A DNA stretch of 57,485 nucleotides. Source: a virus. Below the pieces are notes generated by a model, which did not search any database, was not told the origin of the DNA, and saw only the letters and a program-made list of their open reading frames with translations. Both the position numbers and the translations under genes were made by a program. Positions 10,001 through 46,282 of this stretch are shown here, one piece after another (the stretch's first letter is position 1; every line of letters begins with the position of its first letter). The stretch spans positions 1 to 57,485 of the IMG/VR virus record IMGVR_UViG_3300044712_000163; one strand, written 5' to 3'.

Positions 10001-10429
10001 TTATTTTGTATTCCTTAAATATTCTATTGCTCTTTCTAGTAATCCAATATCATCTCTTAAATTTCCTATGCCTGTATTGCAATTACTACAAAGCAATCCT
10101 CTAATTTTTCCTGTCTCGTGGCAATGGTCTACTGCAAATGCTTTACGCTTACCTGTGTCATTTGTACCACATATTGCACAACAACCGCCTTGTGCTTCCA
10201 ACATTGTTAAATATTCTGAATAACTTATTCCATATATTCGTTTTAATTTACTGTCTCTATCGTTTTTATAATCATAAGGTCTTTTATGTTTATGTTCATG
10301 ATAGCTATTATTTTGATACTTACGATGACATTCGACACAGTTAGGCCTAATGCCGTCTTGATACTTTATGTTCTTTGGAAACTCATCTACGGGTTTCTCT
10401 TCAGAACAAGTTTTACATATTTTACTCAC
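10001..10429 (-). CDS. HNH endonuclease (endonuclease VII-like)
   Basis: The 142-aa protein has an N-terminal zinc-knuckle region (CKTCSEEKPVDEF...CVECHRKYQ) and a C-terminal endonuclease VII/HNH module. That module has 'CCAICGTNDTGKRKAFAVDH' (residues 83-102), then 'CHETGKIRGLLCSNCNTGIG'. The Cys pairs and His-Asn layout are those of recombination endonuclease VII-type enzymes. It interrupts the virion gene cluster and is more AT-rich than its neighbours, so it is probably a free-standing homing endonuclease. Overlap with the downstream fibre gene is four bases. Confidence 0.82.
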   Translation of the reverse strand: MSKICKTCSEEKPVDEFPKNIKYQDGIRPNCVECHRKYQNNSYHEHKHKRPYDYKNDRDSKLKRIYGISYSEYLTMLEAQGGCCAICGTNDTGKRKAFAVDHCHETGKIRGLLCSNCNTGIGNLRDDIGLLERAIEYLRNTK

Positions 10430-22276: not shown

Positions 22277-22305
22277 ATTATGTATACGGTGTTTACATGT
22301 GTCAA
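22277..22305 (-). promoter_or_regulatory. Sigma70-type promoter for packaging operon
   Basis: On the minus strand TTGACA (22305-22300), a 17-base spacer and CATAAT (22282-22277) match the sigma70 consensus at 11 of 12 positions. It lies at the end of the HNH gene and drives the basic protein, RHH protein, TerS and TerL. The same TTGACA is found at two other promoters of the virion block. Confidence 0.72.
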
Positions 22306-22703
22306 GTCTTTTTATTTGCAAACCATTCTTCGTACTGGTGGTAGTTTGGCTCATCTAATGGAATTCCATGGTGCTCGTAGTAGTGGCCCTTTCGATGGCA
22401 ATTAGCACACAGAACCACGCAACGCTCCCGAATCTCGTTAATCGCTCTTCTAAAACACCCATTGGCTACAAGCTTGTGAACCTTTTTGTTATCGGCCTTG
22501 CGAACTACATGATGAAAGTCTAGTGTATTGGGGTGATTTTCTGAGCATAGTGCGCACTTAAGTGTGGATTTAAATACACGCCACTGGGCTTTGCCCTTTT
22601 CTTTGTTTACTTTTGTGCGAGCTATATGGGTTTCTTTGTTGCGCTCATACCATCGTCTCTGGGCTTCTTTTTGCCGTGGGTCTTTTGGGTCAGAATATGC
22701 CAT
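22302..22703 (-). CDS. HNH endonuclease
   Basis: The 133-aa protein has the HNH pattern: 'KCALCSENHPNTLDFHHVV' near residues 48-68, a basic helix 'KKVHKLVANGCFRRAIN', and 'CVVLCANCHRKGHYY' near 94-108. Basic N-terminal residues (KEAQRRWYERNKETHIARTK) fit a DNA contact. It is the first minus-strand gene beside the divergent control region and seems an independent homing gene. Cleavage site unknown. Confidence 0.85.
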   Translation of the reverse strand: MAYSDPKDPRQKEAQRRWYERNKETHIARTKVNKEKGKAQWRVFKSTLKCALCSENHPNTLDFHHVVRKADNKKVHKLVANGCFRRAINEIRERCVVLCANCHRKGHYYEHHGIPLDEPNYHQYEEWFANKKT

Positions 22704-22887
22704 GTGTGTAGGTTAGCATAAGGTGGGGTACTTGCGCAATGTATGTGAAGCATCGGGTTAGTAAACCATCCGCTTTCCCCCGTGGGTGTAAATTTGGTGG
22801 ACTAAAAGCTGTAATGTAGAAAGCCGCAAAACCCATTACTTGCCACATCCTTTATCGACGGCTTAACCACCCGAAATGATTTTAATA

Positions 22888-22930
22888 CCTATGGGTAAAA
22901 ATTGCTTAGTGGATTTGACGCCTATGGGTA
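22888..22930. promoter_or_regulatory. CCTATGGGTA direct repeats
   Basis: CCTATGGGTA occurs at 22888-22897 and again at 22921-22930, 33 bases apart or about three helical turns. A nine-base inverted version (CCATAGGTA) lies at 23199-23207. Such phased repeats look like activator or repressor sites. Function is inferred. Confidence 0.45.
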
Positions 22931-22941
22931 TAAAAAAGTTT

Positions 22942-23007
22942 CCTGATCGGGCAATTCTGATGAAAAAGTAGGCAGAAATAGAGAAATCTTCCCGATCGGG
23001 GTTTTTT
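22942..23007 (+). terminator. Terminator with long loop
   Basis: CCTGATCGGG (22942-22951) pairs with CCCGATCGGG (22991-23000), ten base pairs with one G-U, followed by GTTTTTT. The second arm is itself a 10-bp palindrome. It would stop plus-strand transcripts starting further left, or be an unrelated palindrome near the promoter. Direction and use are uncertain. Confidence 0.5.
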
Positions 23008-23026
23008 GTAAAGAAAAGTTTTGGGA

Positions 23027-23091
23027 TTGTAAAGTTATTAAATGACTCATTAATAAGGCTTTAAGGTATTTAAGGACTCTTTAATGAGTCA
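23027..23091 (+). promoter_or_regulatory. Candidate early promoter with 11-bp inverted repeat
   Basis: TGACTCATTAA (23043-23053) and TTAATGAGTCA (23081-23091) form a perfect 11-bp inverted repeat with a 27-base centre holding three TAAGG words. TTGTAA (23027-23032), an 18-base spacer and TAATAA (23051-23056) could be a weak sigma70 promoter, and the repeat would then overlap its -10 and start. The promoter is tentative; the repeat is certain. Confidence 0.45.
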
Positions 23092-23155
23092 GACATACAC
23101 AACGTGTGTATATACCTAAAAATAGGCCTTGTTGTATGGCAAACACGTAAAAGCA

Positions 23156-23197
23156 CCCCCCGCCCCCTCACCCCCTTTGTCCACCCCCTTAGCCCCC
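23156..23197 (-). other. Five-run G-quadruplex-prone tract on the minus strand
   Basis: The plus strand has C-runs of 6, 5, 5, 5 and 5 at 23156-23161, 23163-23167, 23171-23175, 23184-23188 and 23193-23197. The minus strand therefore has five runs of at least five G with spacers of 1 to 8 bases, more than enough for a four-tetrad quadruplex. It directly precedes the structured RNA. In an otherwise AT-leaning genome it stands out. Confidence 0.7.
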
Positions 23198-23511
23198 TGC
23201 CATAGGTAAGCCGATGGCGTTCTTACTTAGGATTCTGCCAGAGGTGTAGGGCTTACGATGTTCCCTACTACGGGTTGGTCTATACCTGAGCATCCTTTAG
23301 ACTTAGATGGGTAGCTTCCTAGTGCTGAAGCGTTGAGTCAATCTGATACTCAGTAAGCACAACATGGCGGGCGAAGTCTAGCGGGATAGTATCCGTGGAA
23401 AAGGCAAGATGTAATTGCCACACCAGAGCGAACCGCACTACACCACGATGTGTAGATTAGGGCAGAAAATACAAAATCTGTGCCTAAGTCCCGAAATGTG
23501 TAGGGACAATG

Positions 23512-23542
23512 CAAGGGTTATGAGAGAGGATTCCGACCCTTG
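23512..23542 (+). promoter_or_regulatory. Antiterminator hairpin of the leader
   Basis: CAAGGGT (23512-23518) pairs perfectly with ACCCTTG (23536-23542), seven base pairs around a 17-base loop. The right arm shares CCCTTG with the left arm of the downstream terminator. The two structures therefore exclude each other, the hallmark of an attenuator. What shifts the balance is not visible; no leader peptide or known ligand motif was recognised. Confidence 0.55.
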
Positions 23543-23596
23543 AGTGCAAAGTCAAAGCGTTCGAAGCGTATGACCCATAACACTCAAGGGGTTTTT
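23537..23596 (+). terminator. Leader terminator (attenuator)
   Basis: CCCTTGAGTG (23537-23546) pairs perfectly with CACTCAAGGG (23581-23590), ten base pairs, followed by GTTTTT. It lies 61 bases before the first early gene, so termination here would silence the whole early operon unless the antiterminator forms or a protein intervenes. Confidence 0.65.
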
Positions 23597-23657
23597 ATCA
23601 AGCGCCTTATTAGTAGGGTGTTTGATTCTGACTAACTTACTTAAGGAATTATCAATC

Positions 23658-24179
23658 ATGGCTCTACATACAGCAGAAGTATTAAACCAAAAAATCTCCG
23701 CAGTTGGCAAAACCGCAGGTGAATTGCAGTCCGCTATTCAAGAAGTAGCCGTTCAAGCAGTTGGCTATTCAATCGAGCATGGCGATATTCGCTTCGGTCA
23801 AAAGTTGTTTGATGTGCTCCCTAGTGGTGTGCGTCGTGCTAGCTTGGTAGCTTTCTTAGAAAAGCACGGTAACTTTGCTTGGTCTAAAGAAGAAAAATGC
23901 TTTAAGTTCTTCAAAGGATTGGGCGAGCCTCGTGTATATGATGAGCAAGCACTCATGGCGATTAACTGGGCATCTGCAACAAAAGAAACAATCGTATCCT
24001 CTTATGACCTTGAAGCCATCATGACCAAAGCAATCAATGCGATGGAAAAAGCATTCAAGGAGCATGAGAAGTCTGGTGTCAAGATCGAGAACTCAGCAGT
24101 CTATGATTACCTGTGCAGTGCTCGTGATTCATACAACAACGACAAGTATTCAGTAGAAGCAGAACTCAAGGTAGCGTAA
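23658..24179 (+). CDS. First early gene, conserved unknown
   Basis: The 173-aa protein (start at 23658, AAGGAA upstream, MALHTAEVLNQKISAVG) has 'ELQSAIQEVAVQAVGYSIEH', 'LPSGVRRASLVAFLEKHGNF' and a long C-terminal helical region. The 'RFGQKLFDVLPSGVRR' segment is seen in many phage early proteins, none of known function that I recall. It is the first gene after the leader RNA, so it is probably a host-takeover or regulatory protein. An upstream alternative start at 23622 lacks a ribosome site. Confidence 0.7.
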   Translation: MALHTAEVLNQKISAVGKTAGELQSAIQEVAVQAVGYSIEHGDIRFGQKLFDVLPSGVRRASLVAFLEKHGNFAWSKEEKCFKFFKGLGEPRVYDEQALMAINWASATKETIVSSYDLEAIMTKAINAMEKAFKEHEKSGVKIENSAVYDYLCSARDSYNNDKYSVEAELKVA

Positions 24180-25255: not shown

Positions 25256-25480
25256 ATGAGTCACCAATATTTGTGTGTAGCTTGTTATGGTGGGCATGTA
25301 AATCCAGAACGGGCAAGAGCCCTAATTCGCAACGGTTCACCTATCACGTGCATCGAGTGTGGCGACAAGCAAGCCAAAAATCGTAGACATTGTATCGTAC
25401 CTATGGCAAAATCTAATTACGTAGTAGTTACAGATAGAACATTGCTAAAAGGACTAAACAAATATGCGAACACGGAATAA
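25256..25480 (+). CDS. Zinc-ribbon protein
   Basis: The 74-aa protein has two Cys-x2-Cys knuckles, 'LCVACYGGHVNPERARALIR' and 'ITCIECGDKQAKNRRHCIVP', spaced by about 23 residues. This is a treble-clef or zinc-ribbon layout. AGGAGC precedes the ATG. The C-terminus overlaps the HNH gene by 17 bases. A DksA-like or transcription-factor-like role is possible but not shown. Confidence 0.65.
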   Translation: MSHQYLCVACYGGHVNPERARALIRNGSPITCIECGDKQAKNRRHCIVPMAKSNYVVVTDRTLLKGLNKYANTE

Positions 25481-25913
25481 GCCACACACATTAGATTCAT
25501 TAAAAGACTTAACCACAATTACCCCCGATGGATGTTGGATATGGCAGGGGACAACTAGGTCAAATGGATATGGAGTAACTGTATATAAAGGAAAGCAAAC
25601 TACAACGCATCGAGTTGCCTACGAAATAGCTAATAACACCACATTACCAAAAGATATGGAAGTAGATCATATCTGCAACGAAAGAGGATGTATCAACCCA
25701 GCCCACTTAGAAGCAGTAAGCCATGAAGAAAATATGCGCCGAGGTGCAGAGCGTAGAACTGTATGTAGGAACGGACACGAATGGAACAAAGCCAATACAT
25801 ACACCACCCAAGTCAAGCGCAAACAAGGCGGACTACGAATGCAACGCTATTGCCGATTGTGCAGAGCAAAACATCAAGCAGATTTAAGAGCAAGGAGAGC
25901 ATCAAATGGTTAG
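25464..25913 (+). CDS. HNH endonuclease
   Basis: The 149-aa protein carries 'GCWIWQGTTRSNGYGVTVYK', 'RVAYEIANNTTLPKDMEVDH' and 'CNERGCINPAHLEAVSHEEN', the classic HNH arrangement of phage homing enzymes. A Cys-rich tail ('CRNGHEWNKANTYTTQ', 'YCRLCRAKHQADLR') follows. It overlaps the zinc-ribbon gene by 17 bases and the next gene by eight. Confidence 0.88.
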   Translation: MRTRNKPHTLDSLKDLTTITPDGCWIWQGTTRSNGYGVTVYKGKQTTTHRVAYEIANNTTLPKDMEVDHICNERGCINPAHLEAVSHEENMRRGAERRTVCRNGHEWNKANTYTTQVKRKQGGLRMQRYCRLCRAKHQADLRARRASNG

Positions 25914-26790: not shown

Positions 26791-26824
26791 ACCCTGATAC
26801 GCAAGTGTCGGGGTATTTGTTTTT
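26791..26824 (+). terminator. Terminator after the sigma4-like gene
   Basis: ACCCTGATAC (26791-26800) pairs with GTGTCGGGGT (26805-26814) with two G-U pairs, closing a GNRA tetraloop GCAA, and is followed by ATTTGTTTTT. A second hairpin (CTAGGG at 26763 and CCCTAG at 26780) lies just before it. Together they end the small-gene unit before the MoxR operon. Confidence 0.75.
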
Positions 26825-45904: not shown

Positions 45905-45940
45905 CCCCTCTTAGGATTTTTATTCTGAGAGGGGCTTTTT
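45905..45940. terminator. Bidirectional terminator between convergent units
   Basis: CCCCTCTTA (45905-45913) pairs with TGAGAGGGG (45926-45934, one G-U). It is followed on the plus strand by CTTTTT and on the minus strand by TTTAAGTTT. It ends the early block and also the last minus-strand HNH gene, whose codons overlap its right arm. Confidence 0.82.
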
Positions 45941-46282
45941 TATCCAACCAAGTTGATGCGCTGTTTTTAATCTATGGCAGTTAGCACATAAAGTTTGAAG
46001 ATTACTAATAGCATTGTTAGCATGATTACCATCGATGTGGTCTACATCTAATTGGCATGTATGCACCGGAACAAACCCGCAAGAAGCGCAAACAGGTTTT
46101 TTAAATTTTCTATAGGGTTTTTGGTCTTTCCCCCTAGAATGTCCTAGTTTCTTTTTCCCGTATTTTTTGTAGCAGTTTTTACAACAAAATAGTTGATGTG
46201 ATGTAGTCGGCTTGAATAACCCTACACACTCTTTACAGGCTTTTTCAGGGTGATTTACCCGTTTATATTTTTCTTTACTCAA
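45920..46282 (-). CDS. HNH endonuclease
   Basis: The 120-aa protein starts at TTG 46282 (overlapping the upstream stop, TTGA type). Cys-rich zinc knuckles 'CKECVGLFKP' and 'CCKNCYKKYG' precede 'CASCGFVPVHTCQLDVDHID', 'GNHANNAISNLQTLCANCHR', the HNH core. The C-terminus is encoded inside the terminator. Likely a free-standing homing enzyme at the end of the virion block. Confidence 0.85.
   Translation of the reverse strand: MSKEKYKRVNHPEKACKECVGLFKPTTSHQLFCCKNCYKKYGKKKLGHSRGKDQKPYRKFKKPVCASCGFVPVHTCQLDVDHIDGNHANNAISNLQTLCANCHRLKTAHQLGWIKKPLSE

Follow-up and report, generated by a model that had tools for sequence, protein, structure and literature searches.

Gene content and upstream DNA of the divergent region

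The virus record comprises 57,485 bases, which were analysed over their full length (the window), and its genes are organised in two divergent blocks. The leftward block carries T7-like head genes, including those for terminase, a portal-type head-tail adaptor and the major head protein. The rightward block encodes DNA polymerase A (PolA), an SNF2-type helicase, a DUF927 primase-like protein and an AAA ATPase, the gene content from which we infer that this plus-strand operon is early. Between the last minus-strand ORF (22302-22703) and the first rightward gene lies a gap, from 22703 to 23658, that contains the leader RNA described here, adjoining the rightward gene. A search for a phage-encoded single-subunit RNA polymerase (PF00940) gave no match, and the control genomes gave none either. 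Short HNH-like or zinc-cluster ORFs are dispersed in the genome at 22302-22703 (-), 10001-10429 (-), 25464-25913 (+) and 45920-46282 (-), with Pfam confirming HNH only for the one at 25464-25913.

The first early gene (23658-24179, +) encodes a product of 173 amino acids, P0001, that belongs to phrog_1448 (PHROG E 8e-24), a family of unknown function. Its start codon is preceded by a likely ribosome binding site, AAGGA (23643-23647, +). The predicted structure of the protein is of low confidence (mean pLDDT 51), and the family profile found no related solved structure in the PDB. A preliminary description of this DNA had placed a structured RNA at 23201-23596, in an ORF-free stretch between the divergent blocks and just before the first early gene. 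This placement is borne out: the gene at 23658 follows directly and the longest plus-strand ORF of the leader (42 aa) does not exceed chance (51 +/- 18 aa in shuffles).

Conservation of the upstream DNA begins abruptly at ACAACGTGTGTATA (23097-23113, +), a block (ACACAACGTGTGTATAT) that contains an inverted repeat and is conserved in the 12 relatives, and runs via a C-rich tract into the RNA. This block, present as a single copy in the window, is a candidate promoter/operator core. It contains TATAAT in relative L005 and TATATA here, with no recognisable -35 element, and a scan for sigma-70 promoters found none directly upstream of the leader. The C-rich tract (23154-23199, +), with its CCCCC runs, is conserved in all relatives and is possibly a rut-like or unstructured 5' segment of the RNA; on the minus strand the same positions form a run of G blocks in which a G-quadruplex is possible. 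Farther upstream, a 22-nt A+T-rich inverted repeat (23043-23091, 82% complementary) is not conserved in relatives. At 22986-23006, also ahead of the leader, the plus strand reads CCCGATCGGGG, a palindrome, and then TTTTTT, which may together be a terminator; the similar CCTGATCGGG lies at 22942.

A structured leader RNA supported by covariation

The folding energy of the single sequence is ordinary (plus strand z -1.09, with 15 of 100 shuffles folding as well; minus strand z -1.99). Since this energy is unexceptional, the reading of one sequence is insufficient as proof, which is supplied by comparative evidence. Relatives were gathered from viral contigs via P0001 and via a 16-base motif adjoining the start codon. 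Collapse of identical copies left 12 distinct leaders, including that of the window, with pairwise identities of about 56 to 97%. A phrog_1448 gene lies directly behind the leader in all 12. The leader occurs once per genome, and two relatives on contigs of 52-55 kb hold one copy each.

Helices P3, P5c, P6, P8, P9, P9a and P10 were anchored by hand and counted, with the pseudoknot excluded from the cell count. All 551 cells in the sequences that have these helices are standard pairs. Changes on both sides occur at 28 of the 47 pairs, compared with a mean of 7.6 and a maximum of 16 in 1000 replicates of a tree-aware null that relocates substitutions along the tree of the downstream gene; in these counts, the P3 and P5c arms of two or three rows were picked with structure in mind. 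The sequence-anchored subset alone also exceeds the null (13 versus a maximum of 12; G 238 versus a maximum of 135). Alignments made by MAFFT from sequence only pair 95.2% (A4) and 92.0% (A3) of cells, a figure that falls to just 27-51% when the partner is slid by 1-3 columns. Because G.U pairs are present (42 cells, 34 of them in P10) and A.C pairs are absent (0 cells), the RNA is assigned to the plus strand. The existence of a structured leader RNA encoded on this strand is thus close to certain, and a covariation test, of the kind that the preliminary description had proposed, shows helices covarying in the 12 leaders. Were the hairpins due to chance, or to a replication origin or another feature at the level of DNA, the ordinary folding energy (z -1.1) would be accommodated, as would the DNA-like character of the C-rich tract and of the inverted repeats farther upstream. 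This view is contradicted by the covariation, by G.U without A.C and by the far lower pairing of the slid controls, and is barely credible.

The element is slightly longer than originally delimited (23201-23596): conserved RNA extends from about 23185 to 23626 (+), past the terminator. Its structure contains at least eight helices, as had been proposed: P3, P4a, P5c, P6, P8, P9, P9a and P10 are supported, in addition to the nearly invariant P5a. All features described below lie on the plus strand. In folds of the 12 relatives, the 5' domain (23185-23274) is closed by CCCUUAG, which marks the start of the element, pairing with CUACGGG at 23268-23274. It carries a long clade-specific hairpin that is rebuilt from different sequence in L014 and L021 as compared with L005-L012. 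Helix P3 (23278-23302) joins GUCUA (23278-23282) and UAGAC (23298-23302) and shows changes on both sides. Helix P4 (23322-23360) pairs GUGCU with AGCAC around a conserved UGAGUCA(A)UCUGAU loop. P5 (23381-23436) consists of a GCGG/CCGC junction and the covarying hairpin P5c, GGCAA (23403-23407) with UUGCC (23415-23419). In hairpin P6 (23438-23455; CUACAC/GUGUAG), 4-5 of the 6 pairs have changed on both sides. Hairpin P7 (23457-23487) is a variable domain, recognised from folds and kept outside the statistical count, in which UUAGG/CCUAA becomes UUUGG/CCAAA in L012 and L021. Hairpin P8 (23488-23507; GUCCC/GGGAC), which in relatives has a CGAAAACAA-type loop, covaries when anchored and is 71% paired in the MAFFT alignment. 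It is followed by the strand AGGGUUAUG (23514-23522), invariant in 12 of 12 leaders, which holds the motifs AGGG and GUUAUG.

Entire hairpins have been swapped among relatives. Leaders L014 and L010 have close downstream genes and unrelated central domains (P5-P7), the picture of a domain swap within an RNA. A covariance model built without L014 (R2) nevertheless recovers the L014 leader at E 4.5e-25, despite its largely replaced central domain.

No known family accounts for this RNA. At gathering thresholds, Rfam 15 (which includes GOLLD, ROOL, OLE, HEARO, tmRNA, 6S, RNase P, group I and II introns, riboswitches and T-box) has no match in the window or in the leaders of relatives. At a relaxed threshold (E up to 5) the window matches only the S15 leader, with 14.2 of the required 39.5 bits. 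Group I introns, T-box and tmRNA were also considered and set aside, as was a P4-type immunity RNA, no lysogeny gene having been noticed. The leader, and the 8 kb surrounding it, found no match by blastn among annotated phages, and models R1 and R2 found none among named phages. The DNA pattern of the 3' module recovered from viral contigs the same family only, plus two chance matches in coding sequence (L058 and L059). In bacterial genome contigs it gave 20 matches, none convincing by model R1 (best E 0.13), and a P0001 profile search of genome contigs had no match. A search key composed of GCGGG..GCGAACCGCA was discarded as unspecific, its matched loci lacking a match to R2. The open-access literature surveyed describes no leader RNA of this kind. 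The suggestion of an undescribed phage RNA is therefore supported: the structure covaries, its strand is defined, and neither an Rfam family nor an annotated phage was found to match the sequence. On these comparisons, the leaders ahead of the early operon form a well-supported new RNA family, structured and about 400 nt long.

Probable terminator, downstream hairpin and predicted alternative pairings

The 3' part of the leader is occupied by an intrinsic terminator (23537-23596). Its 10-bp stem P9, formed by CCCUUGAGUG (23537-23546) and CACUCAAGGG (23581-23590), encloses a covarying internal hairpin (P9a/b) and precedes a U-run at 23592-23596; stem and U-run are present in all 12 leaders. Six of the 10 pairs have changed on both sides, and the upper stem has been rebuilt by compensation into GAGUG, GUGAG, GCGAG, GCAUG, GAUUG and GACUG types. 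A second, textbook terminator (CCCCUCGCAAGAGGGGUUUUU) lies directly behind the first in L010, L012 and L014; the first stem of L012 is followed by a U-run shortened to UUU. Termination of transcription at the 3' end of this RNA is very likely, and covariation of a terminator that is doubled in three relatives suggests selection for termination at the site.

Conservation continues beyond the terminator. P9 is followed at once by hairpin P10 (23597-23626), a stem of 13 bp with a UUA-NNNN-UAG apex that is paired in all 156 cells, after which come UCUGACUAACU, the likely ribosome binding site and the start of the gene. Since P10 is maintained as RNA, either some transcription passes the terminator or another promoter sits at its edge; the sigma-70 scan revealed no evident promoter there.

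Two alternative pairings involve the invariant strand upstream of the terminator. First, AGGG (23514-23517) can pair with the CCCU of the terminator (23537-23540), forming a candidate antiterminator. For every one of the 12 leaders, this pairing of the invariant GCA(C)AGGG strand is predicted in the nascent RNA at the stage when the 3' arm of the terminator has yet to be transcribed, at -6 to -15 kcal/mol, as compared with -23 to -26 kcal/mol for the complete terminator folding. Its length varies from 4 to 8 bp, and in 9 of the 12 leaders shuffled linkers fold it about equally well. CCCU and AGGG remain invariant next to a freely changing upper terminator stem, which speaks for the antiterminator; being invariant, they lend it no support by covariation. 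Second, GUUAUG (23517-23522) can pair with CAUAAC (23576-23581) in a candidate pseudoknot. Covariation is likewise silent on this pairing because both of its strands are invariant; the terminator end is probably pseudoknotted.

We favour, at a probability of roughly 45%, a cis-acting attenuation or antitermination element that also releases a stand-alone RNA. The leader would be transcribed on the plus strand from a promoter in the divergent region, presumably by the host RNA polymerase. In the nascent RNA, pairing of AGGG with CCCU would allow transcription to proceed through P10 into the early operon. If GUUAUG were instead held by CAUAAC, CCCU would be free, the terminator would be completed and transcription would stop there, leaving a stand-alone transcript some 400 nt long. 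The two states would be mutually exclusive because one upstream strand serves both pairings. Helices P3-P8 would bias the choice, whether as a sensor for a ligand, a protein or an RNA or through an effect on the polymerase, and P10 would serve the read-through mRNA as its 5' structure. Full pairing of P10 in all relatives points to selection on read-through RNA, and the single copy per genome, always before phrog_1448, agrees with such a role. Against attenuation, immediate expression of the early genes is what a lytic phage would be expected to need, no -35 can be recognised in the promoter, and the antiterminator rests on invariant bases with a linker that adds nothing in most leaders. Moreover, the terminator loop is long (34 nt) and structured, unlike that of simple intrinsic terminators. 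The control of early gene expression envisaged in the preliminary description fits the anatomy of a terminator, a possible antiterminator and a conserved hairpin beyond, and the leader may well set the extent to which the early operon is switched on.

With an intrinsic terminator at its end, the element may alternatively be an abundant stand-alone RNA, as the preliminary description also proposed. Such a non-coding RNA, about 400 nt long, would be released at the terminator and act in trans, as those of ICP1 and other phages may do, with read-through into the operon as leakage or processing. The strong terminator and the elaborate structure across the whole length would suit such an RNA, and the transcripts of highest abundance in phage ICP1 are non-coding RNAs (PMC7567579). 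We regard this as rather less probable than attenuation, given that P10 and the distance from it to the gene show no less conservation than the remainder and that the constant downstream gene suits a cis element.

Parallels in cultured phages and known systems

Genes of phrog_1448 occur in 412 annotated phage records, mostly as weak matches; among the matches listed, the carriers are mainly podoviruses and the gene frequently lies close to where the early region begins. An ORF-free, mostly unannotated structured stretch of 400-500 nt precedes this gene in Melnykvirinae, which infect Aeromonas, Yersinia, Serratia and Cronobacter, and in the T7-like vB_PpuP phages of P. putida (L044:3545-3959, L220, L227-L232, L042:1400-1927 and L225). 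No such gap lies directly before phrog_1448 in phiKMV-like, LUZ24-like and some other phages. The Melnykvirinae leader starts at a clear, near-perfect sigma-70 promoter (TTGACA..TACAAT in Atoyac13), and its conservation across hosts falls into separate modules. By eye, it has an apparent H-type pseudoknot with compensation (AACCUC/GAGGUU, GACCCU/AGGGUC and GAGAUA/UAUCUC). In Serratia phage Kaonashi (L231:1070-1600), the gene in the phrog_1448 position, of 176 aa, is annotated as 'DNA-directed RNA polymerase', an annotation unsupported here.

These leaders resemble the window family in gene, length, freedom from ORFs, structure and a hairpin before the gene, but they have different helices and a pseudoknot of their own, and no terminator was seen in them. 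The loci tested gave no match to Rfam, and models R1 and R2 matched none of the cultured-phage leaders. Given the different helices and the failure of both models, we treat them as a positional parallel that does not imply homology. That several podovirus lineages carry unrelated-looking but functionally equivalent leader RNAs, which modify or select the host polymerase or act with the phrog_1448 protein, is a speculative and on balance unlikely proposal.

A long hairpin lies directly before phrog_1448 in most of these T7-like phages, a position that would also suit a leader devoted to mRNA processing or stability. Early mRNAs of the T7 type are cleaved by RNase III at double-stranded hairpins, and P10 is a conserved 13-bp hairpin in a predicted early mRNA. 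It could be an RNase III-type or 5'-protective hairpin, with the remainder as a scaffold for degradation or processing. We consider this account very unlikely, as it leaves unexplained the covarying terminator, the extra terminators and 300 nt of structured RNA upstream.

The put RNA makes polymerase resistant to terminators through the beta' zinc-binding domain. By analogy, the leader may fold on the polymerase and carry it past its own terminator and later ones in the long rightward operon. Both lie where an early operon of a phage begins, the put of HK022 being the reference for RNA-only antitermination in cis (PMC9378689). As weak support, the plus-strand operon holds 17 promoter-like sites versus 39 expected, and terminator-like sites numbering two in the window (25085 and 26791) and one and four in relatives, a small excess over the approximately 0.4 expected in shuffles. 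The one at 26791-26814, the hairpin ACCCTGATACGCAAGTGTCGGGGT, is intergenic within the operon and ends in a T-rich tail. Put is about 70 nt long with two stems; the leader, at about 400 nt and at least eight helices, is some six times longer and contains no recognisable put-like two-stem unit, and a conserved downstream 'terminator' near 35 kb proved to be coding sequence. A mechanism of this type appears improbable.

Like transcription attenuators and terminator-type riboswitches, the element is a 5' leader, and both sequence and structure place an intrinsic terminator at its 3' end, as in those leaders; the mutually exclusive pairing upstream is a candidate one. Unlike them, it has no known aptamer, lies in a phage early operon and bears one more conserved hairpin, P10, behind the terminator. 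In its length, its multiple domains and its hairpins of variable length around conserved nucleotides, the leader also recalls GOLLD, ROOL and OLE, large ornate RNAs of phages or bacteria that were solved by cryo-EM (PMC12286853). It differs in being shorter, in having a single gene, and not tRNAs, as its constant neighbour and in having a terminator before an operon.

Structured RNAs of phages are few and mostly of unknown role, and the present family, strongly supported by evolutionary comparison, occupies the place at which transcription of the phage takes its first decision. The positional counterparts in cultured phages, whose hosts are Aeromonas, Yersinia, Serratia, Cronobacter and Pseudomonas putida, make the role of such leaders directly testable. 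Should the leader let polymerase pass terminators unheeded, a new RNA antiterminator would join put and EAR; should several podovirus lineages carry equivalent leaders, they would represent a previously unrecognised RNA-based control of early transcription.
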